Shown: positions 14,904-58,100 of the stretch, in pieces
How positions within the stretch are numbered: the stretch's first letter is position 1
Layout: each line of letters starts with the position of its first letter
From: a virus
DNA: 64,000 bases
Strand: one strand, 5' to 3'
IMG/VR virus record: IMGVR_UViG_3300028581_000018
Location: 1-64,000 of that record
Notes under the pieces: model-generated
What the model saw: only the letters and a program-made list of their open reading frames with translations
Told to the model about the DNA's origin: nothing
The model's database searches: none
Program-made: the position numbers and the translations under genes

Positions 14904-14907
14904 TAAT

Positions 14908-15657
14908 ATGAAAACATTAACCACAGACAGCATCAAGATTGCATTAAATCGTGTAGGAATCTATAAAATTAAAATTAGTGATAAAGAATACATTGGTAGT
15001 TCTTGTAATATTGGTAGTCGTTTAAAACATCATTTGTGGTCTCTTCAACATTTAAAACATCATAACAGAACAATGCAAAACTTATTCAATAAGTATGGTA
15101 TTAATAATATCTACTTTGAGATTATAGAAGAATGTTCTGAAGAAGTTCTTATTGAAAGAGAAGCTTTTTATATTGAAACACTTAATCCTTATATAAATCA
15201 TATACTTGACCCTCAAAGTTTAGTAAGAGATGACGTATACAGAAAAAGAATAAGTGAATCTAGAAAAAAAGCTTATGCAAATGGTTTAAAACCACATAAT
15301 CTTAAAGCAGTTCATAAGTATTCGCTTGATAAAGGTGAGTATTTAGAAAGTTTTGAGTCTCTTACAGCTGCTGCTAAGTCTATTAATGCTAAGAGTATTA
15401 ATAGTATAAAAGCCGTATGTAATGGAAAACAAACTTCTGCGGGTGGTTATATTTGGTCTTATAATAAAGTTTCTTTAGTATTTTCTAAAGATAAAAAATA
15501 TAAGCTGCAGCCAGTATTACAATATACTATTGATGATATTTTTATCAAGAAATGGGAATCTATAAAACAAGCAAGTAAAGAACTTGGTATCTCTAATATA
15601 AATAGAGCAATATCTAAGAACTTAACTGCAGGTGGTTATAGATGGAAAAAAGCATAA
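14908..15657 (+). CDS. GIY-YIG homing endonuclease (intron 4)
   Basis: ATG 14908 (MKTLTTDSIKIAL) is preferred to one at 14878, which lies upstream of the promoter box. GIYKIKISDKEYIGSS near residues 26-41 is followed by IGSRLKHHL with the conserved Arg, RTMQNLFNKYG and IIEECSEEVLIEREAFYIE with the catalytic Glu. Two C-terminal NUMOD-like repeats end in GGYIWSY and GGYRWKKA. 249 residues. It is closely related in layout to the intron 3 enzyme (MQNxFNKYG, IIEECS) and sits in the same P1-loop position. Confidence 0.9.
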   Translation: MKTLTTDSIKIALNRVGIYKIKISDKEYIGSSCNIGSRLKHHLWSLQHLKHHNRTMQNLFNKYGINNIYFEIIEECSEEVLIEREAFYIETLNPYINHILDPQSLVRDDVYRKRISESRKKAYANGLKPHNLKAVHKYSLDKGEYLESFESLTAAAKSINAKSINSIKAVCNGKQTSAGGYIWSYNKVSLVFSKDKKYKLQPVLQYTIDDIFIKKWESIKQASKELGISNINRAISKNLTAGGYRWKKA

Positions 15658-21308: not shown

Positions 21309-22420
21309 AAATAAAAGTGGTTCTCAATAAACACGGTTAATTGCTGGAATATCCTAAAGACAAACATGCTACAAAGTAAGTATGAAATATGACTAAGCTT
21401 GAATGCTTGAAAAATGTTTGTATGAGTGTAATGTTCATTGTATATTTACAATAAATAACACAAAATGGACAATCAGCAGCTGAATCCCGAACAGGGAAGA
21501 GTTCAGAGATCATCTCGCAAGAGAGTACTTGACTTGAATAAATATATAGTCTGGGAAACACCGTGCATGATAAATAAAATATATGTATACACACTTTCTT
21601 CAACAGAAGATAACAAAGTGCGTTATGTAGGTATTACTACAGATCCCTTAAGAAGGTTATCACACCATACTTCAAAATCTTATCATAAGAATACTCATAA
21701 GAGTAATTGGATAAGTAAAGAACTAAGAAGTGGTAATCAGATATTAATGACTATAGTTGATTCTTGTATTGATTTAGAAGATGCTTTATTAAGAGAAGAG
21801 GAGTTGATTGCAATATATGATAGTTTAACAAATCATGTATTATTACCAACAAAACCTACTATGAAAACATGTTATTTATATAATATATTTACTTTAGAAA
21901 TTATTGAGTTTAGCTCAATCCAATCTGCGTCAATATACTTAAAAGTAACACCTTCAGCTTTATATGATTCACTTATTTTAAGTAAGTGGCTCATGTCTTT
22001 TAATAAAAACTTTGATGAGTTAGTTAAGATAAAACATAGATTAAAAGGGAAAAATGTAAAAACAGGTGAAATATGCTATTTTCTTACTCAAGAACATGCT
22101 GCTAAACATATTGATTGTTCTATACAATTAATAAATAGTTGTATAATGGGTATTAGAAAATCAGCAAAAAAATGGATATTATGTAAAAAGGATCGTGAAT
22201 TTCCAATTTATATTAATAATCATATTTCACCTGTAGTGTGTGTAAATGATGGAAAACTGCATAATTCAATAAAAGAAGCAGCTACTTATTATAAGCTAGA
22301 TGAATCGAGTATTGCAAAAGTATGTAAAGGTTTACGTAAACACACAAGTAATAAAAATTTTAAATATCAAGAAGATATGATCCACCCCCTTTAGAAATTT
22401 AGGGGAGTAAATGCACTATG
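21309..22420 (+). ncRNA. Group I intron 5 (between polymerase motifs B and C)
   Basis: Exon end GAGGATT (21302-21308) pairs with guide GGTTCTC (21319-21325), with U-G at the splice site. Core elements: TTAATTGCTGGAAT (21337-21350), ACAATCAGCAGCTGAA (21469-21484) and TATATAGTCTGGG (21543-21555). It ends with G22420 in ACTATG, like introns 3 and 4. Joining gives MRI-NGQLTLMMLYE in frame. The endonuclease gene lies downstream of S, in the P9 region. Confidence 0.88.
21567..22394 (+). CDS. GIY-YIG-type homing endonuclease (intron 5)
   Basis: ATG 21567 (MINKIYVYTLSST) is chosen, since the frame upstream to 21465 is the ribozyme core. The fold motif is a variant: IYVYTLSSTED...VRYVGITTDPLRRLSHH, with Arg in PLRRL and the Glu in LLREEELIAIYD. 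C-terminal NUMOD-like repeats follow (CYLYNIFTLEIIEFSS, HNSIKEAATYYKLDESSIAKV). 275 residues. This variant differs from the GIYKI enzymes of introns 3 and 4, suggesting an independent acquisition. Confidence 0.85.
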   Translation: MINKIYVYTLSSTEDNKVRYVGITTDPLRRLSHHTSKSYHKNTHKSNWISKELRSGNQILMTIVDSCIDLEDALLREEELIAIYDSLTNHVLLPTKPTMKTCYLYNIFTLEIIEFSSIQSASIYLKVTPSALYDSLILSKWLMSFNKNFDELVKIKHRLKGKNVKTGEICYFLTQEHAAKHIDCSIQLINSCIMGIRKSAKKWILCKKDREFPIYINNHISPVVCVNDGKLHNSIKEAATYYKLDESSIAKVCKGLRKHTSNKNFKYQEDMIHPL

Positions 22421-23218
22421 AATGGTCAGCTTACACTAATGATGCTCTATGAGATGATTTGTGAGGCTATCCCCGAGGCAATACCAATTATGCAGAACAC
22501 AGATGGTTTAGAAACAATGATTCCTGAAAGTGCTTATAACAAGTACATGGAAGTTTGTAAAAAATGGGAGACTATTACACAGCTAGAATTAGAACATGAT
22601 CAATATTCCAAAATCTTCCTGGGCGACGTAAACAACTATATTGCCTTAAACAAAGAAAAGGAGTGCTCTAAAGATGAGCTTTCTAATATACTTGCAGAGA
22701 ACCCACATTTTCCATATCGCGAGCAAAACAATAAATTCTATTACCAACCAGTAAAATGTAAGGGTAGATTTGAATTTCATGAACTGCCGCTTCATAAGAA
22801 CAAGAGTTATCTAATAATCCGCAAAGCTATTTACAATAATCTGGTATTTGGTACCAGTTTAGAGCAAACTATTAACGATTGTAAAGATATTTTTGAGTTC
22901 TGCGCCGGCGTAAAGATTAAAGGAGACTGGGAGTTTTATCAAACATGTGTTATAAACGGTAAAGTATCAAAAGAAAAAATCCAAAATACTATTAGATATT
23001 ATGTAAGTAACAAAGGTTGTAAGATTATAAAGTTCAATTACACAGATGCCAGAGAGATTCAAGTAGAAAGTGGCCCGTGGCTACAAACAGTATTCGTAAA
23101 GTTTGAAAACAAAAAGTTTGAAGAGTATGATATAAATATCAAATACTACATAACTAAAGCTAATCAGGAGATTAATAAACTAAAAGAGTCAAAATTTAAA
23201 CAACTAAAACTATTCTAA
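22421..23218 (+). CDS. Family B DNA polymerase, exon 2 of 2
   Basis: Encodes residues 397-661. Begins NGQLTLMMLYEMICEAIP, the helix leading to motif C, which here is QNTDGLE with Asp424 in place of the usual YxDTDS; NTDG is a variant I recall in phage polymerases of this type. The rest is the thumb. The ATG at 22418 belongs to the intron end. It overlaps the next gene by one base (TAATGG). The enzyme would be the replicative polymerase, working with the helicase, primase and SSB encoded earlier. Confidence 0.92.
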   Translation, partial: NGQLTLMMLYEMICEAIPEAIPIMQNTDGLETMIPESAYNKYMEVCKKWETITQLELEHDQYSKIFLGDVNNYIALNKEKECSKDELSNILAENPHFPYREQNNKFYYQPVKCKGRFEFHELPLHKNKSYLIIRKAIYNNLVFGTSLEQTINDCKDIFEFCAGVKIKGDWEFYQTCVINGKVSKEKIQNTIRYYVSNKGCKIIKFNYTDAREIQVESGPWLQTVFVKFENKKFEEYDINIKYYITKANQEINKLKESKFKQLKLF

Positions 23219-32263: not shown

Positions 32264-35200
32264 TTAAACTCTAAAACACGTCCCGTCTAGATCTAAACCT
32301 ATTAGATCTTCGCTAACAAGAGTTTCACCAGCAATACCTTCTTGGTTTTCAATAATCAAATCCATTACTCCAAATTTACTTGACCCGGGCACCGGTAAGT
32401 TAAATCTCTTATAAAGTTCACCATATAAGTACTCTGCAATAACTTTAGATCCCGCAATTTGTGGAGTGTTCTGTTTTAATATGTCATTTATCAAAAGAGA
32501 CATATCCATTACAACAGCATTTCTAGGATTGCTCAAAATCTCTTCAATTTGAGATAACTGCTCATTTATACGTTTCTTAGCATCTTCAATGCTGGGAGTG
32601 GTACCTTGAACTACAGGACTAGGTTGAGTAGTGCGTTGTTGAGAGGTTAATTTTGCAGGTGCCGTGGGCATACCTGGTGTTAGGTCTGCAGCTCTTCTGA
32701 ATGTAAGAGTAATAGTATAATTTTCTATAACAGTACCATTAGGTAAAGTAATAGGTGGAAACTTCTGATCTCTTTTTACGCCTTTAGGTGTGTCATGAGC
32801 TAGTTCAAATCTACCTTTACCATCCATACCAAAAGTATAAATAGTTCCATTTTGAGTAGGTATTTCTTTTCTAGAATCTGATCTAAAAGATGGTGAACCA
32901 GGATTATTTTTATCCTCATAAATTCCAATTCCACTATTATTACCTATAGTATATACTACAACTGGATAATTTCTAGCACTCAAACTTTCTGTGGTATCTC
33001 TATGTGTTGCTATGTTCTGACCAGGTAAATAAATATTACCAATTACAGCATCATAGTTAGACATATCTATACCTAGAGTATTCTGAATCTCCTCAATAAT
33101 AGGTTGTAGATTAGATACAGGAGCTAGCGGATTACCATTTTGATCAACTGTATCATATACATAGTTATCTTTTGCCTTAGCATCTGTAGTAGCTAATCCA
33201 GCATTTGCATAGCTCTTATTATTAAGAGGTGCTTTAGCTGTACTTTTTCTAGTCCAACGTAGTCCATACATGAACATGTCATTAGCTGTACCAGAAGCAT
33301 TTTCTTTATAAGCTTGTGCTCTAATCTGTGGTTGGATAATATCTATAAAATCTTGAGTCTTATCAACAGATGGTTTAGTTTCTGCTACTACTACACCATA
33401 AGGTTCTGATACTACTTGCTGATTAGTACTTACAGGAGCTTGGGTGGGTTGAGTAGTAGTTCTTAATTGTTCAACTACTTCAGCTAATGCTGTAGGATGC
33501 ATACCTTGACCTCTAGCTGCAGACTTACCTGCATACAACAATGTAGCACCATCTAGTTTACCTTGATTAATTTGATTTAAAATCCATTCTCTTTGTTTTT
33601 CATTTACATCTTGAAGCAAAGTATCCCTTAATTCCATTTCCTTGCCTGTAGTAGCCACAGAATACTCCATATAATCACTTATAGGTTCATCAACTCCTAA
33701 TAACCAATCTTTATAAGCTCTTACTGCTTCACTAATACCGGCAACTTTTATAGTACCTCCATAACCAGCCTCACTAAAAGGATTACCAAAATGCTCATTA
33801 GGTTTAGCAGCTTCAGTGCGCATAGTATTAACCAACTTTGGATTATTTTTATCATAAACTTCCGCAGTTTTTAAATCACCTTTCCATTCTCTTGATGTAT
33901 CTATTGTAGGTTTAACACTAGTAGATGGTTGAGTAGTTTCTTTTACTTTAATTCTTGAAGTAGCACCTGTATGATAAACAGCAAACTTAGCACCTATTTC
34001 TTGCAAATAATCAATAAACTGAGAATCTACATTAGGCATGTCTCCTACTACAAACTCCATATTAAAATCATCATGATAAAACTTTATCATATCTTTAGTT
34101 TCTTGAAGTAAAGGTTTACCTTTTAAGGAACCATTTCTTGCAAGCATGACTGCTTTACCAGGGTCTGCCAGGTTTTTAGTACTTCTAGCAACTGTCTGTT
34201 CTTTTGTACCTTTTTGTTCTATTATACTTCCTGTTTTTAAAGAAGTTAAAGAAGAACTTGGATTAGTATTAGATACTTCAACAACAAAACTATCAGCAAC
34301 TGCTCTCATTGCTTTATCTTTACCATCACCTTCAGGAGTACCTTTACCAGTATTTTCAAAATCTCCTTTATATCCTTGGAATCCTCCAATACTAGTAGAT
34401 GGTTGAGTAGTGCGTTGTACACTAGAAATACCAGCATTAGCAAGCATCTCTTTAATCTTAGGTAAATTTTCTCTAGTATAATCTTTTCTTACTGTACCTT
34501 GTCTACCAAGATTTACATTTTCTGAAGGTATTACAAGTTTAATATTAGGACTAGCTTGTACTGTTTTAATAAGCAATGGTAAAATTTCTTCTATAGAACC
34601 TTCACCATGACCTAAACCCGCTAAAGGAAGTAAATAAGTTTTAGTTGGGTTTTCTTTAGAAACTTTAATCAAACTTCTTAAACTTTCTTTAAGTAACTCC
34701 ATGTTATTATTCATAGACATGTCATCACTCCATTTTTTCTTAACAGGTAACTGTACTACATCATCAGTAGCTTTAAAATTACCTTCACCTTGTTTAACCA
34801 AACCTTTAGCTTTAGCTGCTTGAGCAAGACCAGCACCATGTACACCACCTAAATTAGTAGTAATAACTGGGATACCAGGTAATGCAAAAATATCACCTTC
34901 TAATACTTTATCATTACTTACAGGAGCTTTGGTGGATTGAGTAGGTTGACCACCTTCTATAAAACCATCACCTACTTCTTTAAAACCAATACTAATTGGA
35001 AGATACTTGGCACGGGTAGTAGTATTTCTTAAATATGGAGACCTTGCTGCTTCAGTTTTATCTAGAGTGGTTGGATATACTACATATACCCCACCCGTTT
35101 GATCTTGCTTAATAACAAGGTCGTAGTAATCATATGGCTTAGAATAACCATATTGTTCGTTGGTAAAGAGCAGATTTCTAAAGTTTTTAGATGGTACATA

Positions 35201-38200
35201 ATTTGATCGTATTGTCTCCCCGCCAGGTAATCTATAACTAAATGCACCAGGAACAAGCTCGCTTCGGTCAATTTTTACAGGTGCCAAGCTGTATTGTCTA
35301 ACAGGAACTGTTGTTTTTCTAGTTTGACCAGAAATAAAACCTTCAGCAAAGTTCAATAATGATTGTTCTGAAAAATTAAAACCTGAAATAGCATCTTGAA
35401 TTGTAGCGTTTACTTCAGACAAATCAACTAGGTTTACTAAATTAGAAACATTTTTACTAAAACCATTTTGTAAAAATGCAATCTGGGGCAGCATAGTAAA
35501 TACATAGTTTATAAGCTTAATATTACTATCTGACAAGTTTGGCATTCTGTTTTTTACCGCCGTAAAATCTTTTAGTTGTTTTAACTGAGAATGGTATGAC
35601 GTTGCAGTAATCTCATCAATAGATTTTCCTATAAAGTCTAATATTACATATCCTGGATATTTTTTAGAATTAGTAAGAAAATAAGATAATACAGGAAACT
35701 GCTCTGTTAGTTCTTCTGAAAAATCTTTCTTTAAAATGTTTCTATAGAACACATTTGCAAATGATGATCCAGGATCTTGAAATAACTTATAGAGATTAAA
35801 GCTGTTAATATACGCCCTGTTTTCTTTTTGAACATCTGTACTATTTGGTTGAGTAAGTTCAACAATCGCGCGCTCTATCAAGAACCTAGTATACTCATGT
35901 ATTGTTGGGAACTCCTTGTTGCGAAAATCATTAGATAAGCTTTCATACTTTCTTTGTATCTCACTAGCACTTATATAGATTTTATCTTTAGTGAGGTAAA
36001 CACCTTTTTTTAAATAATCTACATACTGAACAGGTACTGTTTCTGATACACCAAATCCTTTGTAAGAATCAGATACACCAAGTCTAAAACCACGAACAGC
36101 ATTTTGGTATAATGCTAGAACAAGTTCATCTCTAAATGCAGCATCTAACAACTCCGTGCCGGTAGCTTTATTTGATGTTTGGCTATTTGATAATCTTCTA
36201 TAACCTTCTTGTAAAGAGTTAAACTCAGTGTTATCCGTTTCAATTTTACCACTAAGTTTATTTATAAAGTTATCAATGCGCGCATCAAACCTAAAAGGTA
36301 ATACTGATTTTGTTAAGGCTATAGAAAAGTCTCCAATAAAGAAGCTACCAATCATAGACTTTTCAGAGTTTTGAATAGCGTCAACTAAAGATCTATCAAT
36401 ACGACCATCGTAAAGCAGCTCATTTAATGATGCTTCACGTTCTCTGGTTGATAGATAAGAGTTTTCTCTTGTGGTGTCTACATTTGTTGCCCGGCTAAAC
36501 TTTGTAAATGCTTCAGATATATTTGATATCTCAATAAAATGTCTTAAAACTTTTTCTTGATACTCTTTATCTACTTTAGTAGGTATAAGTTGATCTTTAA
36601 GATCATTTAGTTGAAACTCTTCTTCATTATTTAATGAGTTTAATATGATTACATTCTTATTTTTATTGTTTAAAAGTATTTTATAAGCCTCACTTGCACC
36701 TCTTTCTTTCTTTAATGCTATGAACCTTCTAACAAGTGGTTGTGATACAAAGTAAACAGCATGTTCAACTGGTACTCCTGCCATTAACATATACATTAAT
36801 ACAGGAGTAATCTCTTTGTTACCTTGTATATAGAAGATCCATGGGTTTGCGCCAACGTCAACCCAACCATTAATCATCTGACTAAAAATATCAGATATTC
36901 TTACAAGCGGTGCTTTTTTATCTGTTCTATAACTATAAGTGTTATGTAAAGATATGTTACCCTCTTTTGTTACATTTTTTGGCAACAGCATCCTTATTGG
37001 TACAGTATAATCCTCCTTATTATTTCCACTACCTGTGGATATAACATATTCTTTTGGACTAACACCTTTCAAACTATTCAATAGAATATTATAGGTGGTC
37101 ATAATTGCACCAATACCTAAAGCATCCATGGCTGTCATGTATGCTTCATACTTAGACAAGTTGTAATCAGACTCAAATAATCTAGTAGGGCTTATTACAC
37201 CAGTAGATTCTCCAGAAAAATTTAATAATGGATCATAAGTCTGTGTGAGCCTTTTTAATTTATCAGCAAGATCATCAAAGATATCTGTGCTGTTAGGTGT
37301 TATTAATGACTCATAGTTTTGAGGACTTAATATAATTTCAAGAGATGTTTCTAGTAAATCTGTTTGTAGGGCGCCGACATAATTGTTCTCAACATCTAAT
37401 ACATAAATAATCTCTTTTAGATCTTCAATACTTTCTTCTATTTCTTTATTTAACTGATTTTTATCTTGAAAAGCATTTTTTAGTTCTTTATCTAAGTTAC
37501 CTGATTCATCTTTGAATCTATCAAATTCTTTTATTTGATCAAATAACCTTTTACTAAACTTTTCTAAGATACTCCTAGATGTGTCTTTAGTTAAAATCTT
37601 AGAGGATATGCGAAGAGCTTTAATTATATCCCCGTCAGTATAATCTGGTTTAGAAAGTACTTTTTGTAATGGACTTGGTAAAAATTGAAGCTGTCCGTTT
37701 TCACGATTATCATTAATTATTTTATTAATTTCTTCAATAATAAGCTTTCTACGAACTTTAGCATACTCGAGATTGCGTATGATATTAGAGATTGTCTCTT
37801 TGTTAACTTTCTTATCTGCTTTAAGATCTTTAATTAACATTTTAACTCTTTCTATAACATCTTTCTTATCAAGATTATTTTCTTTTTCAAGTCTTGATAG
37901 TTCATCTAAAAGATCTTGTCTTGTTTTATACTTCTTAGCAGATATTATCTTACCATTTTTATTTATTCTAGGAAATAGTGATGGTAGTTTATCAAAGTCA
38001 AAGTCACCACCAGATTTACCAACAATCTCTGAAGGCAACACAATAATGTTACCCGTGCCAATTGGCAAAAACTCATATACTTCTAATGCATCAATTGAAC
38101 CTTGACCCTGCACAGGTATCCTTACACCAAGAATACTAATTGCCTGGCGGTTGTCATCTTGATGTAACCATTTATCATTTTTGATTAACTGGTTTAGCTT

Positions 38201-41200
38201 AACCCGGCTAGCCTCAATATCAAGTACTCTCTTTTTTGTACCATCTTCTTCTTCAACGATATCATATACAGCAATTATATTACCATTAAGATCTTTACGC
38301 TGAAAAAGATTTATGAAGTCTCCATGTAAGGTAATAGCTACTTTAGCAGCTTGAATCTTTTTAGGATTGTATTTATAAAAGGGTAAAAACTCATTAGTAC
38401 CTAACCATTTCTTTCTTTCACTCTCATTAGCTTTTCTCCAAAATGATCCAGGTACTTGTACCAGTCCTTCACCATATGACTTTTGCTTTATAAGGCGCCG
38501 GCTGATTGTAGAAAACATGATTGCTTCTATAGTCTGGGCATTAGGTAAAGCTGATAAATCATTAGTTAGATTACCATTAGCATCTACAGAAATCTGTTTT
38601 ACTATATGCTCTGGTAAATTTTTCTTTCTCAGTTGAGTTTGTAAAAAAGCAGCAAGTCTTTCTACTGGGCCAGAGTATGTATTACCTTCTTTTACCCAAC
38701 CTATTTCATCTAAGAAATCTTTTTCAAGATTTTTAGTAACCTCATCTACAAGTCTTAAATAGTCTTTTTCAAGTTCTTTTTTGTCCTCTATAATTATACC
38801 ATTTAAGTACAAGTTCTCAACGATAAGCTTCCTCATCTGCGTAGCAAATGTTTGACCCGCTTTCCAAACATTAGTATTGCTGGTAACCTCTTTTAAGTAC
38901 GCTAAGTTTACAGGGTTAACGGTAAACTCTGTAGACATATTTATCTTATTACGATCACCATTCTCGTAAAGATCAGTAGGATTACCAAGATTAGAAATCT
39001 TTGAACCACTAGGATAAGTAATATAATCTATATTATTGATAATCATAAGATTATGAATATCATTTAATAAAGAATCTTCATGTACATTTGGTAGTAATGG
39101 TGATATACTAAACTTGTGTAATGCAGTAATAGGGGCATCTGTCTGAAGATTACCGTACATTTGTAACTTGTAAGTTGGAAAAAATACTTTAGCGTCATTA
39201 GCATCAAGCTTTTCACCATTTACAATCTTTTGGTATAGTGCTTCTTGTTCTGGTAACCAGTTGTTTTGTGCAATTTTAAGGTGTCGGTATGTATCAATAG
39301 TCATATAAGCATGACCATCACCAATTTTCATTTCTTTACCATAAGCTTTCTCAAGAGATTCAACAACTTCTTGTCTAACAGCTTTTTGACTTCTCTTTTC
39401 TCTCGCGGCTTTAAGTTTAACAACAGCTTCAATCATTTCATTAAGACTAACAGATCTTAAGCCTGTATCTTCCTGAATAATTGCTGTATTTAAAATACTA
39501 GTTGTCTCTTTTACAACCCCATCTGGTCTAAGTTCAGACATTACCTTTTCACTGTAAACTTTGGGGTATGCTTTATTAATAGCTTGTAGTACCCATTCAT
39601 CAGAAATAAAACCTGGGCCACCAGAACCAGCACCAGCATTATACTTTGTACCAGCTTCTTTTTTGTGATTGTATTGAGCCATATCACCATAAAAGAAATT
39701 GTTCATTTCAAAACGGTGAATAAAGTAGTTTACTGTATATGCTCTAACTAACGTTTTGTTTAACTCAGCATCCTTTACATTTAAATTAAACTTTCTTAGT
39801 TCTGTTTCATCTACAGGAACAAGTGGAGCTGATTGATCGTATCTATTCTGATTTTGCTTATTAACTTCTGTAAAGTAATATTTTAGATCTTCTTTAATAG
39901 CATCAATGTTTTTCCTTACAGATTCATCAGATGTTAAACCCTTCTCAATGTCTGCGTATAGAGCACCTTTTGTCTTAGGACTTAATATATCATCAAATGC
40001 TGTAAACTTTTCACCGGCGCCATCTTTATTCAACGCTTGGTTTTGTTTGTATGTCTCATTTGTCTTAAACAAAACAATTCTTTCATACTCCGCTTTGATA
40101 TATCTTTGAAGTAATCTAAGAGCATCATCTGGTAAAAGAGTATTCTCAAATAGTTTAGGTTGTAAGTATAATTCAGCAGAACCATTTTTATCTGTTATCA
40201 TAGGAACATAAACACTAGATTTACTTTCGTGAACTAGTGTTGGCATATATCCGTGTAGGATAAAAGAATAAAAGTCAGTTATGAACTTTTGATTTATTGT
40301 TAAATCTGTAGCTGAACTAGCATTTTCTATGTTATCATATTCATCAAGCTGTTGATAACCAACATGAAACATTAACTCTAACTTATTAAGATTGTTTCTG
40401 GATTCATCTTCGTAAAAAAGTTTTTCTCGTATGATACTGTACTTGAAAAATGGATTTAGTTCTTCAGAAAACTCTACGTTAAAGCCAGATGCATCTAATA
40501 AGTTAATGCTCTCATTTAGATACATGATCTTTCGAGTCATTGAGTTATGCAGAGAAATACTACTTACCAGATCACCATTAGCATTTAGAATAATGCTATC
40601 GTTAAAAAGAGGATTATACTTAATCTCTATCTGGGCAATTTTTCTAAGAATAGTTCTTTGATTACTTATTTTAGAATCAGTACTTCTCTCAATAAATGCT
40701 TGTAGAGGATTACTTTTTAGTTTTTTGTTATTAGGATTAATGCGAATATCATCGAGCATTTTATTAGCAGCAGATAATAACTCATTAAGAGTAATTCCAC
40801 TTTTTTGTGCTTGAATTACTTCTTTAGTAGTTTTTGTAAGCTGTACACCGAGCCTTTCAAAAAACTCAAAAGCTTCCTCAAAAGTGTTTACTCTGTTTGG
40901 TAAGTTGTTTGTGTTTAATACTGCTTCGTTATTAACGCGGGGTGCCACGTTAACAAAAATATTCTGCCATCTTCTATAAACATTTCCTACACTATTAGTA
41001 GCTTTACCAGAAGTGAAAGTTTGTTTAGTATCTGTTGTATTTTCATCAACCAGAACGTTACTTTTTGTATTAATTAATGCTTCTACTGATGCTTTATCAA
41101 AGGCTGAATGAAAATTTAATAGCACCTCTAACAAAATCCTTACTCTATTTCCTGTAATATCTTGAGCTAAAGCTCTATTGGTTGTATGCTCTTTAGGTAA

Positions 41201-44200
41201 CAGTTCATATATTACTTTTAATACAGGAAACGCATCACTAGACTTTTTTATAGCATCAAGCATCTCAGTATAAGTCTTAACGCCAACAACTGTTTTTTGT
41301 AATGCATTAAGCGTTGGGCCAAATTCTTGGTTTATAGGAAACCCTAGTTTGTTCTTTATATAAACAAACTTTTCCTCACCTATACTAAAATCATAAGATT
41401 TGCTGTTAATCTCTTTTTGTGTAGCTTTTTTAAAACTAGGAATTATTCTAAGAATTGTTGTAAGCTCTTTTGGTAAATAGTCTTTCATAGGTCGACTATT
41501 TGCTCTCTTATCTCCTCCTTGTTGTAATAACTCAGAATTGTTTGATGTATCTGCGTCAACGTCAATATCAATATCTTCTTCAGCAACTACTAAATTAGTA
41601 ATAGCTGCAGATGAAGTTTGAGCATATGCTGCTAAAATACCATTTGTCTTTTTGTTATTCGCAAATGATTCAATGTCTCCAAAGTTCTCAATAACTATCT
41701 CTAGCAGTCTCTTTTGGTCTAGTAAGTTGTTTGGTTTTTCTTCAAGACTATCAAGCTCCTCATTAATATCAGCAAGTTTATTCTTAAAGGTATTTAGAAT
41801 ACCTTCAAAAATTGTTGTACGTCCTTTTGATGAATACAAGAAAGCTAAGTTGTTAGAGCGAGTTCCGTCTAGTTCTGTGTTAATTAAAGCTTTAGCTACA
41901 AGCCCATCAATAGATTGTCTAATAAGATCAAACTCTTCATCTTCAATGTTCAAAGGTGTTTTATCATCTTTTACACTCTTAGCACGATTCAAGACATCAA
42001 ACATTGAGTTATTAATGTTTGGTTGAAGATTTAGAAGCTTACCAAAGTAAAGTTTCTCAAATGCTTCAGCCACTGCCGGTACACTCATTGCATCTACATA
42101 GACAGCATTTCTATTAGTGCCCCCAAACAAAGCCTTTAAAAGATTCCAGATCTTTCTAAAGATTGTATTTTTTGCAGGAGAACCCTTCTCAGGATTTTGG
42201 AATCGAGCATAATCTCTAAACTGCTCGGCTAAATATTCTTCTATTTGAAAGAAAGAAGCATCGCTAAAACTTACTACCTCACCATTAACAGTTGTAAATA
42301 CACCGGGTTTTTTACGAACCTCTTTATATAGTTTTACTTTTTCTTCAGTGGTTAAGTATAGCTGAGTAAAACCGTGCCATGCTTCGTGGTAAATATCTAC
42401 AGAACTTGATCCTTTATAAAGGGTGATGCCTGATCTTGAAAATGTGGCCCAAGCATTACTATTAACAATACTAAGTAATCTGTTTAAAGGTATTACTTTT
42501 GAAAGGGGACTATTCGCCCACCATTTTTCAGCATCACGAATTTGTTCTTCTGTGACTGCGTTTTCTAGATTTGTTGCCCTAAACAAATCGTCAAAACTTA
42601 AATTAAAAAGATCAGGGTTACCAGGATTTAAATTCTCATTGTCTTGCTCTTCTACAGTTTTTTCTTCTGCAGGTGAAGTTTCTTGTTCAACCTCTGGAGT
42701 TTTTTGTAGAGTATCTAAGTCTGGTAATGTATATCTGAAAAGAGGATTTAATGCAACAATTTGACCTTCTGCATTTGGTTTACTAGCACGTACTTTAATA
42801 TTGTTGTATAACCAGCTATAATAGTTAGAATTGTCCTTAACTTTCAGTTCTCCATTTTCAACTTTAATATTTGTATATATACCATTTGTAAAGTTTGTAA
42901 GATTAATATTTACAAGAATGTTTTGTTTAAACACCTCCTCAAGTGCAGACTTAAGATTTTCATCTCCTATCTTGTATTGAGTTTCCTTACCATCGGCATC
43001 TTTTATAGTAACTGTTTCTGCAGATTTATTATATATAACTTGAGGACGATCTGTAGCCTTAACAGTAGTAAGAAGATTATTTCCAATCTTTACAAAAAAC
43101 GTTTCAAGATACTTATATCTAGTATCAGAGCTTATATTAATATTGTCAACTAGTATATTTTGTTCAGAAAGAAGCATTATTATAGCTTCTGTTAAACCAG
43201 GAACATCTTTAAAATAAGGCTTAACTGCCTCAACATGTTCATCTGATAAGTTTCTAACAAGATTAGTGATCTTTAAAAACTTATCAAAAATACCCTTTCG
43301 ACGAATCCAATCTTCTGAATCTATTTGTTCATCACTTGCATCTATACGTATATCTCTTAGAAGACCTGGTGTATTATCATAGTTAGAACTACCTATTGAT
43401 GTAATAGGCATTGTTACTTGAGTATTGTTTTCTGTTACATACTTTTTAGTTTCTTCTAGTCGCTTAATAAGTTCTAATTGAGCAGCAATTGCTTCTCGGC
43501 TTTTTAGTGTAGCAATTTTATCTTTATTTCTAGTAAAGTTATATATCACACCCCCAGTGCCATCTTCTGTAATGTTTCCTTCATTATCAAACAAATAAGG
43601 TACACCCTTAGCATCTGTTACAATTAAAATTGTAAGGTTTTCTCTCCTATTGTAAAGATTTGATCTTTGAAATCTATTCATTGACGCAAAGTCTCCACTA
43701 CCCAAATATTCTTTATCTAGCTCTATATCTAAATTTTGGTGAGCCATCATTGTATAGTACAATGGCTTACCATTATACATCAAAGGTTGACCAGGAACCG
43801 TTTCTTCATTATTTTTCTGTTGTTTAGAAACTTTCTCTTTGAATTTATAAATTCTATTTTTTACAGGATCTTCTTCATCACGAAGAGTTTGAATTGGTAC
43901 AGTTACTTTTTCTTGTTCAATTTGAAAAGCTTGTTCTCGGGTATCTGTGTTTGGACTACTAGAATAAGTAAAAACCGGTTCTGAAGTATTAAGTTCTATT
44001 TTACGTTTGTTATCTTCTGTTGCTTCGTATTGTCCTAGTACAATTCTTTGTGAATCTATAATCTCTAGAATAGTTTGTAATGAACCAGTTATTGTAGTAA
44101 TTAACTTTTTAACCTCTTCAATATCTTTGAATGTTTCAATTGAAATACTCAGTTTATCTGAGTAATTAATTCTTGCAAGATATCTTTTAACTTCAGGTAC

Positions 44201-44413
44201 AAAATATGATAAACCTGATATTAACTCAGGTACCATCATGGCATATGCTAATGCTGTATTCTCATCATTATTTTTACGAACTAATGAATATATTTTTTGA
44301 GCAAACGGTACCACAGAAAAATTTTTCTGATCTGCAGTAATCATTTTCTGAATGTCTTTTAATAGAAGAGCACTTACTCGTTGTATTTGCTCTTTTGGTA
44401 TAGCACAGTTCAT
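32264..44413 (-). CDS. Giant crAss-like phage RNA polymerase polyprotein, 4049 aa
   Basis: The polymerase signature is GKSGGDFDFDKLPSLF near residue 2135, matching the DxDxD metal motif of the single-chain RNA polymerases of crAss-like phages (phi14:2 gp66 type). YPSGSK near 1800 is the likely lysine-bearing barrel partner. Upstream, DIYHEAWHGF near residue 675 with EEYLAEQF is a zincin-type peptidase motif. The C-terminal 900 residues are separate modules: macro-like (about 3165-3310; GGVHGAGLAQAAKAKG), SLOG-like (3390-3490; FVVGDMPNVDSQFIDYL), DUF4326-like (3520-3650; FGNPFSEAG, MHPTALAEVV) and AlkB-like 2OG-Fe(II) dioxygenase (3685-3910; HRD, AHDTPKG, LTFRRA). TTQPS-type linkers separate them. 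Probably co-packaged with DNA and used for early transcription; the tail modules are discussed under findings. Confidence 0.88.
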   Translation of the reverse strand: MNCAIPKEQIQRVSALLLKDIQKMITADQKNFSVVPFAQKIYSLVRKNNDENTALAYAMMVPELISGLSYFVPEVKRYLARINYSDKLSISIETFKDIEEVKKLITTITGSLQTILEIIDSQRIVLGQYEATEDNKRKIELNTSEPVFTYSSSPNTDTREQAFQIEQEKVTVPIQTLRDEEDPVKNRIYKFKEKVSKQQKNNEETVPGQPLMYNGKPLYYTMMAHQNLDIELDKEYLGSGDFASMNRFQRSNLYNRRENLTILIVTDAKGVPYLFDNEGNITEDGTGGVIYNFTRNKDKIATLKSREAIAAQLELIKRLEETKKYVTENNTQVTMPITSIGSSNYDNTPGLLRDIRIDASDEQIDSEDWIRRKGIFDKFLKITNLVRNLSDEHVEAVKPYFKDVPGLTEAIIMLLSEQNILVDNINISSDTRYKYLETFFVKIGNNLLTTVKATDRPQVIYNKSAETVTIKDADGKETQYKIGDENLKSALEEVFKQNILVNINLTNFTNGIYTNIKVENGELKVKDNSNYYSWLYNNIKVRASKPNAEGQIVALNPLFRYTLPDLDTLQKTPEVEQETSPAEEKTVEEQDNENLNPGNPDLFNLSFDDLFRATNLENAVTEEQIRDAEKWWANSPLSKVIPLNRLLSIVNSNAWATFSRSGITLYKGSSSVDIYHEAWHGFTQLYLTTEEKVKLYKEVRKKPGVFTTVNGEVVSFSDASFFQIEEYLAEQFRDYARFQNPEKGSPAKNTIFRKIWNLLKALFGGTNRNAVYVDAMSVPAVAEAFEKLYFGKLLNLQPNINNSMFDVLNRAKSVKDDKTPLNIEDEEFDLIRQSIDGLVAKALINTELDGTRSNNLAFLYSSKGRTTIFEGILNTFKNKLADINEELDSLEEKPNNLLDQKRLLEIVIENFGDIESFANNKKTNGILAAYAQTSSAAITNLVVAEEDIDIDVDADTSNNSELLQQGGDKRANSRPMKDYLPKELTTILRIIPSFKKATQKEINSKSYDFSIGEEKFVYIKNKLGFPINQEFGPTLNALQKTVVGVKTYTEMLDAIKKSSDAFPVLKVIYELLPKEHTTNRALAQDITGNRVRILLEVLLNFHSAFDKASVEALINTKSNVLVDENTTDTKQTFTSGKATNSVGNVYRRWQNIFVNVAPRVNNEAVLNTNNLPNRVNTFEEAFEFFERLGVQLTKTTKEVIQAQKSGITLNELLSAANKMLDDIRINPNNKKLKSNPLQAFIERSTDSKISNQRTILRKIAQIEIKYNPLFNDSIILNANGDLVSSISLHNSMTRKIMYLNESINLLDASGFNVEFSEELNPFFKYSIIREKLFYEDESRNNLNKLELMFHVGYQQLDEYDNIENASSATDLTINQKFITDFYSFILHGYMPTLVHESKSSVYVPMITDKNGSAELYLQPKLFENTLLPDDALRLLQRYIKAEYERIVLFKTNETYKQNQALNKDGAGEKFTAFDDILSPKTKGALYADIEKGLTSDESVRKNIDAIKEDLKYYFTEVNKQNQNRYDQSAPLVPVDETELRKFNLNVKDAELNKTLVRAYTVNYFIHRFEMNNFFYGDMAQYNHKKEAGTKYNAGAGSGGPGFISDEWVLQAINKAYPKVYSEKVMSELRPDGVVKETTSILNTAIIQEDTGLRSVSLNEMIEAVVKLKAAREKRSQKAVRQEVVESLEKAYGKEMKIGDGHAYMTIDTYRHLKIAQNNWLPEQEALYQKIVNGEKLDANDAKVFFPTYKLQMYGNLQTDAPITALHKFSISPLLPNVHEDSLLNDIHNLMIINNIDYITYPSGSKISNLGNPTDLYENGDRNKINMSTEFTVNPVNLAYLKEVTSNTNVWKAGQTFATQMRKLIVENLYLNGIIIEDKKELEKDYLRLVDEVTKNLEKDFLDEIGWVKEGNTYSGPVERLAAFLQTQLRKKNLPEHIVKQISVDANGNLTNDLSALPNAQTIEAIMFSTISRRLIKQKSYGEGLVQVPGSFWRKANESERKKWLGTNEFLPFYKYNPKKIQAAKVAITLHGDFINLFQRKDLNGNIIAVYDIVEEEDGTKKRVLDIEASRVKLNQLIKNDKWLHQDDNRQAISILGVRIPVQGQGSIDALEVYEFLPIGTGNIIVLPSEIVGKSGGDFDFDKLPSLFPRINKNGKIISAKKYKTRQDLLDELSRLEKENNLDKKDVIERVKMLIKDLKADKKVNKETISNIIRNLEYAKVRRKLIIEEINKIINDNRENGQLQFLPSPLQKVLSKPDYTDGDIIKALRISSKILTKDTSRSILEKFSKRLFDQIKEFDRFKDESGNLDKELKNAFQDKNQLNKEIEESIEDLKEIIYVLDVENNYVGALQTDLLETSLEIILSPQNYESLITPNSTDIFDDLADKLKRLTQTYDPLLNFSGESTGVISPTRLFESDYNLSKYEAYMTAMDALGIGAIMTTYNILLNSLKGVSPKEYVISTGSGNNKEDYTVPIRMLLPKNVTKEGNISLHNTYSYRTDKKAPLVRISDIFSQMINGWVDVGANPWIFYIQGNKEITPVLMYMLMAGVPVEHAVYFVSQPLVRRFIALKKERGASEAYKILLNNKNKNVIILNSLNNEEEFQLNDLKDQLIPTKVDKEYQEKVLRHFIEISNISEAFTKFSRATNVDTTRENSYLSTREREASLNELLYDGRIDRSLVDAIQNSEKSMIGSFFIGDFSIALTKSVLPFRFDARIDNFINKLSGKIETDNTEFNSLQEGYRRLSNSQTSNKATGTELLDAAFRDELVLALYQNAVRGFRLGVSDSYKGFGVSETVPVQYVDYLKKGVYLTKDKIYISASEIQRKYESLSNDFRNKEFPTIHEYTRFLIERAIVELTQPNSTDVQKENRAYINSFNLYKLFQDPGSSFANVFYRNILKKDFSEELTEQFPVLSYFLTNSKKYPGYVILDFIGKSIDEITATSYHSQLKQLKDFTAVKNRMPNLSDSNIKLINYVFTMLPQIAFLQNGFSKNVSNLVNLVDLSEVNATIQDAISGFNFSEQSLLNFAEGFISGQTRKTTVPVRQYSLAPVKIDRSELVPGAFSYRLPGGETIRSNYVPSKNFRNLLFTNEQYGYSKPYDYYDLVIKQDQTGGVYVVYPTTLDKTEAARSPYLRNTTTRAKYLPISIGFKEVGDGFIEGGQPTQSTKAPVSNDKVLEGDIFALPGIPVITTNLGGVHGAGLAQAAKAKGLVKQGEGNFKATDDVVQLPVKKKWSDDMSMNNNMELLKESLRSLIKVSKENPTKTYLLPLAGLGHGEGSIEEILPLLIKTVQASPNIKLVIPSENVNLGRQGTVRKDYTRENLPKIKEMLANAGISSVQRTTQPSTSIGGFQGYKGDFENTGKGTPEGDGKDKAMRAVADSFVVEVSNTNPSSSLTSLKTGSIIEQKGTKEQTVARSTKNLADPGKAVMLARNGSLKGKPLLQETKDMIKFYHDDFNMEFVVGDMPNVDSQFIDYLQEIGAKFAVYHTGATSRIKVKETTQPSTSVKPTIDTSREWKGDLKTAEVYDKNNPKLVNTMRTEAAKPNEHFGNPFSEAGYGGTIKVAGISEAVRAYKDWLLGVDEPISDYMEYSVATTGKEMELRDTLLQDVNEKQREWILNQINQGKLDGATLLYAGKSAARGQGMHPTALAEVVEQLRTTTQPTQAPVSTNQQVVSEPYGVVVAETKPSVDKTQDFIDIIQPQIRAQAYKENASGTANDMFMYGLRWTRKSTAKAPLNNKSYANAGLATTDAKAKDNYVYDTVDQNGNPLAPVSNLQPIIEEIQNTLGIDMSNYDAVIGNIYLPGQNIATHRDTTESLSARNYPVVVYTIGNNSGIGIYEDKNNPGSPSFRSDSRKEIPTQNGTIYTFGMDGKGRFELAHDTPKGVKRDQKFPPITLPNGTVIENYTITLTFRRAADLTPGMPTAPAKLTSQQRTTQPSPVVQGTTPSIEDAKKRINEQLSQIEEILSNPRNAVVMDMSLLINDILKQNTPQIAGSKVIAEYLYGELYKRFNLPVPGSSKFGVMDLIIENQEGIAGETLVSEDLIGLDLDGTCFRV
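32622..32639 (-). repeat. Linker-coding repeat, copy A
   Basis: An 18-base sequence (plus strand GGTTGAGTAGTGCGTTGT) encodes QRTTQP in the linker after the AlkB-like domain of the 4049-residue protein. It is identical to 34401-34418. The shorter core GGTTGAGTAGT also occurs at 33927-33937 and, in another gene, at 56880-56890. Confidence 0.85.
34401..34418 (-). repeat. Linker-coding repeat, copy B
   Basis: Identical to 32622-32639, coding the TTQPS linker after the macro-like domain of the 4049-residue protein. The 5' flank ACTAGTAGAT is shared with the copy at about 33927. Confidence 0.85.
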
Positions 44414-44417
44414 ATGT

Positions 44418-47400
44418 TTAACACTTTGAATTATTACCTATATCGTCTTCTAGACTAGAATCATCTTGATCTAAAAAGGGATTTTCTTCACCAAATGTAG
44501 TTCTAGGTTCACTTTTAATAGCATCTAAGTTTTCATTGGTTAATTCCAGGTTTATCCGTTCTTCTTGAGATAGTACAACAGGTTCATCCTCAACACTTAA
44601 AAGTAGGTCAAATGAATTTTGAAAATCTTTCACACTCATTTTTTCTTTTACTGAAGGATTATTTACCAAAGATATCACTATTTCTCCTCTTGCCTCATTA
44701 TAAGATACAACTTTATAAGCAGTATCTACACTTTGCACATCACTTTTCCTAAAGAAATATGTGTTTTTTGATATGCTTTCTAGATCTGGTAGTAGGGCGA
44801 GCTCCGCGCGCTTTGCTTCAATAGCATCACTGAGCTCTTGATTAAGTGTAGAAGTAGGAAACTGGAATCTGAAATTAAAAGCTTCTTTTACAACACCTGA
44901 AAGCTGGCTTAAATTTGTAACAGCACCAAGCATTCCTAGTATGTTTTGACGTTGTTCTGATGCTCGATTAAAGATTGTAGCATCTGACACGCGCATCCTA
45001 CCAACAACACCATTAGTTTCTGCGTCAACTAGATTAACTACATCTTCATATATTACATCAAAAGCTTCACCCGGTACAACAGATTCTTTTTGAAGACTTA
45101 GCTTTATGATGTCTCCCTGGTTTAAAAGAATGTTTGCGTCTAAGAATACCCCAACCCGTAACGTTTTACCATTTACTTTTAGAATTAAACTTCTAGAACT
45201 TCCATATTCAAAGTATTCGCCGTAGAGTTCTTGTCCAGAATTTAAAAGCTCTCTTACAAGTTTTGCTTTAGCGTCAACACGGTCACTAGGTCTTGAGTTA
45301 TCAATCTTAGTTAGTACAGCTTCTTGTTCTGCTGTAAGACTAACTGTGTTCTCATTAGTAAATGTTGTAGTTTCTCCACCGGTATCTTCACTTTCTAAAA
45401 CAGCTATTTCTTCATCAAATTTCTTTTTTAACTCATTTAATATATCTACTCTTCCTTGATCTTTAGCTGTTTGCATTGCTTTGAAAAATGCTTCTGCTAC
45501 AATTTGACGATCCTCAGATTGTGTATTTTTATCTGGATGTACGAGTTTAGCATATTCTTTAAACAATCGTGCAGCTTCTGCTTTATTTGTTTTTACTACC
45601 TCACCCTTAAGAGTTTTATTGATAGCATCAAACATTTGAGATCCTAAGTTATCAGGTATAAACTCACCTCTAACAACTTTACCTGGTTGATTTTCACTAA
45701 AATCAAATAATGATTCGGATCCAAATACTTTTGATATAGTATCATTAATTCTCTTTATTATATCCCCTTTATCAGAAACAGTAGTACCTTCTAAAGCAGC
45801 TAGTTCTGCATCATATTTAGCATTGATTTCTTTATTTCTTTTTTGAACTTCTGGCATCCATACATTGTCAGGTAAAGAAGCTCTATTATTTTTAGCATAT
45901 TCAGCGACCTGTTCTCTTTCTTCTTGTCTTCTTCTTTCTATAGCAGTAACCTCCTTAAACAATGCTGGATATCTAGTAACTACACTTCCTGCTACTACAG
46001 GCTCTTTAGGATTCTCTAACAAGAATTTTGCAAGTCTTGTTAGCTCTTTAAATTCAGCAGGAGTTATCTTTTGTTTTTCATCTTCTAACGCATCTGCTCC
46101 TTCACCCTCTCCAGTTTCTTCTCCTGATGGCTCTTCTTCTTCTGCTCCTGTTTCTTCTTCTGTTACCTCTTTTAGTCTATTACCTAGTGCTTCATCTACA
46201 ATCTCTTCTAATGTCATTTCTTTCTTGGTTGTATCACTAGGAACATCGCTTGTGAATACTACATGTTTTTCATTGACGTTGATGGTTATAAAGGGCGCAT
46301 CCGCTGTGAGCTTTTGAGTACCTACTTTTGCTGGAGTTTTAATAGACGATATTTTTGCGTCGCCATCATACTCTACCTCAAGAGGTAATATCCCCAGGTT
46401 TATTTTGTCAAGACCAGTAATTTCCTGTAAGATCTTTTTGTAAATAATCTGTTGTAGAGCATTTTTTATATATGTTCTATATGCATCCGCTCCTGTAGAA
46501 TATTTTGACCATTTAGATTTCTTACCGGTTTTTACATCTACAATCCACCACTCTGAGTTTTCGTCAATGAATAGTAAATCCATTTGCCCAGCAACCTTTG
46601 TATTATCAGAATAGATTACATCTGTATTAGAGGCTATTTCTCCAACCGTTTGTTTAAAAGGCTCTAGTATCTTTTGTAGTTGTTTAGCCGCAGCTTCTGA
46701 TAATAAAGACGTTTCTGGAATACTTGTAGCACCAATATCTGCTACAAAATCTCTTACCGCCTCATCAACCTCGTTACCAACATCTCTTGATGCATCATAT
46801 AAACTATTCATTATCTCTTCAGATAATGTATCTAAATAGTTAGTTTGTACCTTAGCCGTTATTGTACTTGATGCTAATACCCCAAGAAAATCAGGCAATC
46901 TTTGAATTGTACGATCTAGTATTTTACCAGCTTTTTCAGAACTAACTTTACCACCAGTTATACTAACAAGCTCTCTTTGCATATGCGCGCGCACATCTGT
47001 AGCACGATCACCTTTTAACGCATTAGCTAATTGTGTAAGGTATAGTGTTACCTCAGCATTTGGCGCTAAACCAAAAGGCTCTTGTCTAAAATACTTTTCT
47101 AGTATTTTTTCAACTATTAAACTCACCCTAGCATACTCTTCTTCTTTAATGATATATGCTTCAGATGATTTTACTGGAGTACCATCAGGATTTTTCTCTA
47201 CACTAGCCATTCTTTGTCTAATAGAATCTAGAACTTTTTCAATTTCTTGTTCTATTAAAAAGATGTCTTTGTTTGTATAGAGAGCATACTGTTTTATAAA
47301 AGCATCCAGCGCGTTTATATCATTTGCTAAAGCTGTGTATTCACGAGTTCTAGTTGTAAGTGTAGCTAGTTTAGATTTTAAAGATTTTAGCAAACTCCTC

Positions 47401-55186: not shown

Positions 55187-58100
55187 TTAACTAAATAAAC
55201 CTTTGTATTGTGTATAATAATTAGGATCTACTCCTGTATTTTGAGTCTTTGACTTGTACTCACGATCATATTGTTCTTTTGCAAATTGTGCAGCTTTATT
55301 ATCATCAACACCCATTTGTGACTTAATTTTTTCTTTTCTTTTTGCAATCTCATCCCAGTCATATTCTGCAGAAGCAGTTTGTGAACCGTCAAATGGTTTA
55401 GATACACCTGTTGGTAATACAAAACCACTACTTGGATCAACTTGATATTGTGGATTTAAAACATTTAACGCTTGCGTTTTCCCCCGGTTGGTAAGTGCAT
55501 TAGTGTAAGCTTGTGTATACTGCTGCCGTGCTTGATTTTTAGCATTCTCAAATTGTTGATTAGCTACTGTAGTTTTATCAAATATATTTGTAGCCCTATC
55601 AGCAGCCGCTTTTCTACCAGCATCTATTAAACCAACATTTATTTGGTTGGCTTGGTTATAGATATTTTGGTTAGCGTTATTAACAGATGATAATGTATCA
55701 GCTATACTTTTAGCAGCGTTGCCTTGTAAATCAGACATTCTAGCAGAAAAAGCTTGTGGCCCACTATATGAAGTTAAACCTTGTACAGCTTGTCCAGCAG
55801 ATTCATTAATTGCAGCAATTTGACGATCCGGGTCTATATATGATGCAAACATTTGTGGTGGTTCATATGGTGCTACAAAAGGTAACTGTTTGTTTATGTT
55901 ATACAAGTTACCAAAGGTAGCAAGATTAAGAACTTCATCCTGCGCCCACCATGGAGTAAATCCTGGTACACCAGGAATATTTTGATTTGTTTGCGTAGGT
56001 TGATCTGTTTCAGTTTCAGTAGTTGTACTTGGTTCTGTAAACTCTTCTTCAGCATATTTACCAGGATCATATCCAGCTAATTGACCACGAGTAGTATTAG
56101 CAAGTACATTATCAGCTCTAGAAATAGAGCCTGCCTTATCTCCTGTAATTTTATCATTAAACTTACCAGCTTGTTGTATGCTGTAAGGCTTAAGTTTTTC
56201 TTTCAGTGCTGGAGGTGCGTCTTTATCATCACGATACTTTAATAGATCTCTATAAGCAATGTAAGATAACTGTTGACCAATACCTGAAGTTCCAGATGGT
56301 GGTGTAATACCAATCTGTTTAAGTTTTGTATTTATATCTGCACCTGTTTCACCTGCTTTACTAACATCATAACCATGTGCCTGTAAAGCAAGATTAGCTT
56401 TTTCAAATTCTAAAAACTGTTGAACTATTTCATCAGGAGAAAGATTCCGCAGCTCATTTTTTTGAGCTTCTGTAATTTTTTCACCAAAATAGTCATTGTT
56501 GTCCAAACCCTTTTTAAACTGTTCAACAAATGCATCTTTAACATCAGTGTCACTAAATGTTTCTTCTATAGCAGCATATTGTTGAGCAAATCCTTTATTA
56601 TTATTAAAGATCTTCGTAAAATCATTAGACTGTTCATCAAGTGTAAATTGTCTTGGTTGAGATGTAACCTTTCTTAATTTACCATCTGCTGTTTCATAAA
56701 TATCACCAACATTTAAATTATTCTTATCAAAACCAGCATCTTCTTCTTTAGGATAGTTTGATTTTTTACCAGCATTATCAGATGCTGTAACTGGCGTAGT
56801 TTCAGTTTTAGTAGTTGTAGGAGAAGGAGTAGCTTCAGAGGATGTTTGATTAGTTGCAGATTGAGTAGGTGTAGTGGATGGTTGAGTAGTTGCAGGTTGC
56901 GTTTGAGTTACTGGAGTTGCAGTTGCAGGAGTATACTCAGATAAAGTTTTATCAAATGCAGCACCTTGATTTTTTTTGTTGTATGCGTCTTTTGCAAATG
57001 TAGGTTCGTAGTTATACTGTTGTGGGTTCTCAGTATAAAATTCGCGTGGTGTTTCAGTTGTCTTAGGAGCATTGTTATTAAAGTCAAAATTATTCCACAT
57101 CAAAGATCTAGGAACAAAATTATCTTTAAAGTTCTTAACATATACATCAGGTTCAGCATCTAAATTTTTTCCTGTTTGATATGAACCATTAATTTTAGCT
57201 TCATCAATAGAAGCAAAACTATTAGGGTTAGTTAAAAAAGAATTGTAATCAAAGTTTGGTACATCTTTAACTGTACCACCCATAGTAGAAGGATCTACAC
57301 TTCCACTAGCAACTAAAACTAAATCTTTAATTGAGCGACCAGTATTAAATTTATAATCAACAAGCCTTACTTGCATTTCAGGTTTTAAAGAATTATAATC
57401 TACACCTAACTTGGTAAGCTCATCAACTGTTTTTTGTATATGTTCTTTCATTTTAGTCTTATTACTACCAGTCCAGTTATCATCTGAATACTTACTTTGA
57501 TAAGACGTATTACCTTGTGTGGCTGCTTTACCACCTTTCATGCCAGCATCTCTTTCATGCTTAAGTATATACTTTGTCCAGTTATCATTCCAGCTATTAA
57601 ATGCTGTATCAATTGGATCTCCACTATTAGCTTGTGCTTGGCTATTAGCTGCATTTTGTAATGCTACTGCGTCATTTCCACGATATGTGCCAGATTGAGC
57701 ATCTGACTTTAAGATATTTATTAGACCTTCTTGATTAGAATCAAGATTAACTGCATTACCTGTTTGAAAAATAGGTAATGAAATACGTACACGAGATCTT
57801 GATTGTCCACCTTCACGCATATATGGCATGCCACCATATTCCATTACAGGGTTATAGTAAGATCCTCCATACATCATCATCATCTCTGGTGATACTCCTT
57901 GCATCATTTGTGGATCAACAGGTTGTTGATCTGGAGCCATCATTTGTTGAGCTTCTGGTTCTTCTTGAATTGGCCCTTGATTATATGACTCTGTTGGTAC
58001 ATCTTGTATGTTTTCTTCACCAGGTTGAGTTTGTGGTAAAAGCATTTCTGGTTTAATACCTTTGGACTCTAGGTAAGGCATCGCAATTACAGGTATCCCC

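Follow-up and report, generated by a model that had tools for sequence, protein, structure and literature searches.

The C-terminal region of a giant virion-type RNA polymerase from a crAss-like phage appears to consist of interchangeable enzyme cassettes. As judged from comparison with relatives, modules of this kind are acquired, dropped and traded separately from the polymerase, recur in many unrelated virion RNA polymerases (vRNAPs) and are in many cases joined at a conserved DNA sequence. This interchangeability is the main point that was absent from the initial annotation of the DNA. The reading preferred here, with a probability of about 0.7, is that the vRNAP serves as a swappable payload bay for injected counter-defence enzymes, which would remove ADP-ribose and alkyl adducts and act on NAD-derived signals. 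The window analyzed is a stretch of 64,000 nucleotides, positions 1-64,000 of the virus record IMGVR_UViG_3300028581_000018, which spans 109 kb in full.

A Giant Virion-Type RNA Polymerase

The polymerase, P0001, comprises 4049 aa and is encoded by a single ORF of 12.15 kb on the minus strand (32264..44413). The reference segment of its RNAP core (residues 1912-2170; 37904..38680, minus strand) contains the catalytic motif DFDFD (residues 2137-2141; 37991-38005, minus strand). In tblastn searches, the core matched g066 of Cellulophaga phage phi14:2, the catalytic RNAP subunit (E 3e-8), and likewise other crAss-like phages, and a core profile matched phi14:2 gp66 at 4e-38. The phi14:2 record annotates gp66 (g066) as a virion protein by MS/MS proteomics, and the RNAP proteins gp47, gp49 and gp50 of crAss001 were detected in virions by mass spectrometry (PMC10172136). 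Given the homology to gp66 and the detection of gp66 and gp50 in virions, P0001 can be regarded by homology as a crAss-like vRNAP with the DxDxD motif in a giant single chain. The same homology to phi14:2 gp66 and crAss001 gp50 suggests that P0001 is packaged and injected together with its modules, and the earlier claim of packaging stands as far as homology carries it. A zincin-type metallopeptidase motif, HEAWH, lies at residues 676-680 (42374..42388, minus strand), so that P0001 unites many conflict-related domains and a zincin in one chain, as is characteristic of polyvalent proteins.

The last ~900 aa form, as initially described, a train of separate modules within the one ORF, connected by linkers rich in T/Q/P/S. 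The whole 900-aa tail found no match among phage records (tblastn), and no relative was found for the C-terminal end of the protein (residues 3930-4049; 32267..32626, minus strand). Of the four domain names that had been proposed for the tail, macro and AlkB were borne out, whereas SLOG and DUF4326 were not.

Further giants adjoin P0001: the 2465-aa P0002 (24847-32244, minus strand), which carries its own zincin motif, HEFAH, and had no Pfam or PHROG match, and a 1245-aa protein with a PD-(D/E)XK nuclease domain (44418-48155, minus strand). GIY-YIG/HNH homing endonuclease genes are located at 54546-55181 (minus strand) and at 13500-14270, 14878-15657 and 21465-22394 (plus strand); one of these genes sits between giants of the RNAP block and another between two ORFs matching DNA polymerase (20121-21314 and 22418-23218).

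The Four Cassettes

Cassette 1 (residues 3166-3338; 34400..34918, minus strand), which overlaps the first joining site described below, is a predicted macrodomain of the DarG/TARG1 type. Its matches to NCBIfam A1S_2505 (2e-6) and DarG (4e-4) both lie below the curated cut-offs, and PADLOC gave a DarG match of 0.003. An AlphaFold2 model built from 12 sequences (pLDDT 82, pTM 0.81) matched the DarG and TARG1 macrodomains in the PDB (Foldseek; prob 1.00, E 1e-5, TM about 0.5-0.67), with DarG as the top PDB matches. While a sequence-profile search of the PDB with the macrodomain returned nothing significant, the A9 macro profile gave a weak alignment to M. tuberculosis DarG (E 0.32), in which VVQLPVKKKWSD is set against IINFPTKKHWRA and VITTN against NTVN. 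On the basis of this alignment and of the fold match, K3225 (34739-34741, minus strand) is equated with DarG K80 and N3187 (34853-34855, minus strand) with DarG N22, the two positions at which mutations cut DarG turnover most (PMC5179494). Both residues are invariant in the window and four close relatives, and the Trp of the DarG PTKxHW motif is present in the window as well. The macrodomain may therefore work like DarG; it is not filed as DarG, since it scores 19.7 bits against the 250 bits of the DarG equivalog. A single macro sequence retrieved no relatives from IMG/VR, which were recovered with a four-row alignment as the query. Macrodomains were also observed in giant ORFs (L102, L103 and L106; 1546-4021 aa) in which no RNAP core was matched, in L102 possibly as two tandem copies.

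Cassette 4 (residues 3666-3925; 32639..33418, minus strand) is an AlkB-like 2OG-Fe(II) dioxygenase. The Pfam family 2OG-FeII_Oxy_2 was matched at residues 3736-3867 with E 2e-5 (25.3 bits against a cut-off of 31.2), and the relatives of the module scored between 19.8 and 59.1 bits, the best (9e-16) above the cut-off. The HxD...H iron triad, formed by H3804/D3806 (32996-33004, minus strand) and H3873 (32795-32797, minus strand), is kept in 64 of 64 AlkB sequences, and the late strand (FRR) with the 2OG-binding Arg, here R3906-R3907 (32693-32698, minus strand), reads R/R in 61 of 61; these are the residues and positions that had been pointed out initially. E. coli AlkB possesses a second 2OG-contacting Arg six residues upstream, a position occupied by Thr3900 in P0001. 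A sequence-profile search of the PDB with the module yielded nothing significant, and no relative of the family was found in 84,980 bacterial and archaeal genomes (tblastn, E<=1e-3). An alignment-based scan identified 56 AlkB loci, nearly all of them inside ORFs with an RNAP core. The exceptions are a standalone 265-aa AlkB gene of the same subfamily (49% identical) on a 368-kb phage contig (L055, 9995-10789) and three AlkB ORFs without a visible core (L058, L069 and L080), each of which starts or stops at the edge of the available stretch. Loss of catalytic residues in relatives, which the initial annotation had named as evidence against itself, was not seen; because the residues of both the macro and the AlkB modules are kept in the aligned relatives, the earlier reading stands on this point.

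Cassettes 2 and 3 are real conserved families whose proposed names are unsupported. The ‘SLOG-like’ cassette 2 (residues 3342-3492; 33938..34390, minus strand) belongs to a family of 16 loci that are 46-81% identical. It was modelled as an alpha/beta fold (pLDDT 81) of unproven identity, with no Foldseek match at E<=1e-3 in the PDB or BFVD. Pfam SLOG families matched none of 14 members, HHalign gave no link to the cpYpsA cassette found in relatives, and a PDB sequence-profile search with the family returned nothing significant; the SLOG name is thus a lead only. The ‘DUF4326-like’ cassette 3 (residues 3500-3653; 33455..33916, minus strand) has relatives at 12 loci, 60-67% identical. PF14216 (DUF4326) was absent from 11 members and from the genome of the window phage, and a single match below the cut-off (E 0.004) overlaps the module in L022. 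A PDB sequence-profile search with this family gave nothing significant, and no relative was found in the 84,980 bacterial and archaeal genomes (tblastn, E<=1e-3). In another relative (L018, residues 3331-3582), a DUF7831 module is nested inside the DUF4326-like module.

Exchange of Modules Between Polymerases

Apart from these four families, vRNAP tails were found to contain cpYpsA SLOG, DUF7831, NADAR and Pif1/UvrD-type helicase domains. Among 38 non-redundant AlkB-carrying vRNAPs, AlkB identity was uncorrelated with RNAP-core identity (Mantel rho 0.02, P 0.26), whereas control regions of the same proteins followed the core closely (0.85 and 0.87 for RNAP segments, 0.81-0.83 for the zincin region, which evolves together with the polymerase). 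Identity within the macro, DUF4326-like and SLOG-like families was likewise uncorrelated with the core. Where cores are at least 60% identical, AlkB falls below 45% in 16 of 31 pairs, and pairs with 82-88% identical cores carry AlkB modules that are only 27-30% identical (L008/L093: core 88%, AlkB 27%). Such pairs of similar cores with dissimilar AlkB are unbiased, since finding loci through their modules cannot produce them. The opposite situation is exemplified by L057/L061, with 22% identity in the core, 97% in AlkB and dS values of 1.58 and 0.17, respectively, and by the window and L001, whose cores are 35% and whose AlkB modules are 90% identical, with a similarity that stops in the linkers and a dS of 0.36 (0.25-0.48) for AlkB vs. 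1.61 (1.27-2.25) for the core.

Module order varies as well. It is macro, SLOG-like, DUF4326-like, AlkB in the window, DUF4326-like, macro, AlkB in L016, and AlkB followed by DUF4326-like in L008, while L005 (cpYpsA-AlkB) and L060 (AlkB-cpYpsA) show opposite orders on cores that are 86% alike. In five proteins (L015, L030, L031, L054 and L109), a module precedes the core. A small domain occurs both at the polymerase end and at the extreme C-terminus of the tails of L049, L033, L062, L086 and L093, bracketing the bay. This twofold repeat was considered as a recombination substrate and rejected; as its copies are only about 30% identical, it is taken to be an old duplication rather than an exchange site.

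Many of the loci are metagenome assemblies, and cultured isolates agree with them. The ‘putative RNA polymerase’ of Kehishuvirus (crAss001 gp50 and its orthologues), called only slightly variable among the PhiCrAssBcn isolates (PMC10354031), is 96.7-100% identical over the aligned parts of its first 3.8 kb. At one site in this protein, PhiCrAssBcn1, 2, 3, 20 and 25 carry a cpYpsA SLOG module, PhiCrAssBcn4-12 another insert of about 115 aa (L116 = PhiCrAssBcn4) and the uncultured relative cr112_1 an A1S_2505 macrodomain. crAss001 has nothing at this site, and PhiCrAssBcn13-19 and 21-24 have the same length as crAss001; Bcn1, Bcn4, crAss001 and cr112_1 were aligned and the rest judged by match length and coverage. 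Similarly, a macrodomain is inserted in the Kolpuevirus ‘frurule’ (host B. cellulosilyticus), while cr126_1, cr106_1 and DAC15 are without one there. Because isolates and independent contigs give the same pattern, assembly chimerism was rejected as its main cause.

A Conserved Joining Site

The linkers on either side of the SLOG-like module are identical over 21 bp, with 0 such repeats expected by chance even if three mismatches are allowed. The two exact copies of ACTACTCAACCATCTACTAGT (TTQPSTS), at 34391..34411 and 33917..33937 (both minus strand), form a direct repeat 474 bp apart, and a diverged copy with three mismatches lies in frame in the neighbouring giant ORF 55187-58657 (56870..56890, minus strand). 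The consensus of the site, CTACTCAACCATCTACTAGTGTT, is read as TTQPSTSV; written as CTACTCAACCATCTACTAGTGTTaAA, the consensus has poorly conserved flanks. When only loci retrieved through protein similarity are counted, 21 of the 26 occurrences of TQPST use one and the same 15-base spelling (P 1.5e-28 relative to codon usage), despite CCT being the more frequent Pro codon.

The exact 21-mer was found in 20 IMG/VR stretches, three of which hold two copies spaced by 480, 480 and 813 bp, i.e., by about one module. With up to three mismatches, 59 non-redundant sites were present in the collected loci, all 59 in one reading frame, 35 within 20 aa of a recognised module and none inside a module; many module edges are without a site. 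As unrelated module families follow it, the site is a property of the joint and not of any one module. It may act as a recombination point for cassette exchange. That Crassvirales in this way shuffle enzyme cassettes on an injected polymerase through the in-frame recombination site CTACTCAACCATCTACTAGTGTT, and thereby maintain a rapidly changing kit against DNA adducts and NAD-based immunity, is a tentative proposal that we rate at somewhat less than even odds. The window also contains an exonuclease VIII (RecE)-like gene (17993-19030); no recombinase could be tied to the joining site.

Proposed Function and Alternative Explanations

In the proposed model, the vRNAP would double as a delivery chassis that takes self-contained enzyme domains as in-frame plug-ins, with the cassette bay located behind the polymerase or, in some relatives, ahead of it or inside it. 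The joining site would provide short homology, through which phage recombination could trade cassettes. Packaged and then injected with the vRNAP, the modules would counter host defence within the first minutes of infection: the DarG-type macrodomain and, in relatives, NADAR would strip ADP-ribose from phage DNA and reverse DarT-type modification, AlkB would reverse base alkylation, and SLOG, macro and NADAR modules would act on NAD-derived signals. Together, the modules could clean the template that the attached polymerase must read. DNA ADP-ribosylation of the DarT type is known to defend against phages, and other phages possess specialised proteins to overcome it (PMC11481870). Guanosine-ADPr on DNA is a substrate hydrolysed by NADARs, among them one from an E. 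coli phage (PMC11125620).

The main rival holds that the cassettes act on small molecules only, degrading or binding NAD-derived immune signals, with the DNA template uninvolved. Action on soluble ADPr derivatives, which is not exclusive of DNA cleaning, is argued for phage Macro/NADAR/SLOG/DUF4326 fusions in the available passages of Iyer et al. (2022, PMC9503650), and cpYpsA SLOG and NADAR cassettes do share the same bay. However, the window macrodomain is nearest to DarG/TARG1 with DarG K80 and N22 kept, NADARs have a known DNA substrate, and AlkB, a common module in vRNAPs, does not fit, which leaves a purely soluble role unlikely, if worth serious consideration. It is improbable that the modules are not enzymes but sensors, gating or tuning the attached polymerase on host signals. 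SLOG domains can sense ligands, and fusions to nucleic-acid enzymes are so read in the same passages (PMC9503650), but the invariant catalytic residues of AlkB and the kept K and N of the macrodomain speak against such a role, as do modules that lie at either end, occur in any order or are missing from a nearly identical vRNAP.

Cassettes could also be selfish in-frame insertions without benefit, the conserved site being their scar. Clean pairs of insertion and empty site exist, and homing endonucleases are plentiful in the genome of the window phage; yet the recognised modules contain no nuclease or recombinase, their catalytic residues are strongly constrained and unrelated families follow the same site, so that this explanation appears quite improbable. 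Finally, that there was no exchange and the modules have merely changed less than a polymerase that evolves fast, as the very fast divergence of crAss RNAPs (PMC7886860) might suggest, is contradicted by synonymous divergence, which is likewise low in the modules and has reached saturation in the core, by the dissimilar AlkB modules on 82-88% identical cores and by whole insertions separating relatives, and has next to no probability.

Relation to Known Systems

crAss-like phages dominate the human gut virome. If the payload-bay reading is correct, a swappable payload could partly explain why phages of the same host differ in their sensitivity to defence, the 21-bp site at cassette edges could be used as a search key for unknown anti-defence enzymes, and the vRNAP would represent an unusual case of DNA-adduct erasers fused physically to an RNA polymerase. 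Kehishuvirus isolates in culture, which differ by one cassette but hardly at all over the part of the gene that was compared, offer a natural experiment.

Parts of this picture are already known, namely giant multidomain transcription proteins of crAss-like phages (PMC7886860), injected polyvalent proteins and viral Macro/SLOG/NADAR/DUF4326 fusions. No paper was found on AlkB or the other modules as exchangeable vRNAP parts or on the joining site, most subscription papers lying outside the search. With the virion proteins phi14:2 gp66 and crAss001 gp50, P0001 shares the DFDxD core and the giant single chain; gp66 (2180 aa) is without any module by profile, and P0001 adds about 900 aa of apparently exchangeable modules. 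The likeness to DarG (of DarTG) and TARG1 is confined to the macrodomain part and consists in the predicted fold, the catalytic Lys, the binding Asn and the PTKxHW Trp, at a score far below the DarG equivalog. In the tail-fibre adhesins of T-even phages, short conserved coding motifs have been suggested to be the points at which recombination swaps modules in frame. Those swaps change receptor binding, whereas vRNAP cassettes would change the enzymes on an injected polymerase and exchange unrelated folds.

The same or similar module types are fused in several viruses of the Macro/SLOG/NADAR/DUF4326 network, though, except in RNA-virus polyproteins, these domains usually stand alone (Iyer et al., 2022, PMC9503650, available passages); the text available of that paper contains neither ‘crass’ nor ‘AlkB’, and its passages describe no exchange site. 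Polyvalent proteins (Iyer et al., 2017, PMC5512222) are also large and multidomain, are thought to be injected and combine a metallopeptidase with varied conflict enzymes; that text makes no mention of crAss, AlkB or SLOG. In contrast to them, the chassis here is an RNA polymerase, and many of the joints share a conserved DNA sequence. In the N-terminal part of the L001 giant ORF, upstream of the zincin, an ADP-ribosyltransferase-like stretch of the ART-PolyVal type, YHGSPEYFEKFDISKLG, was noticed by eye.
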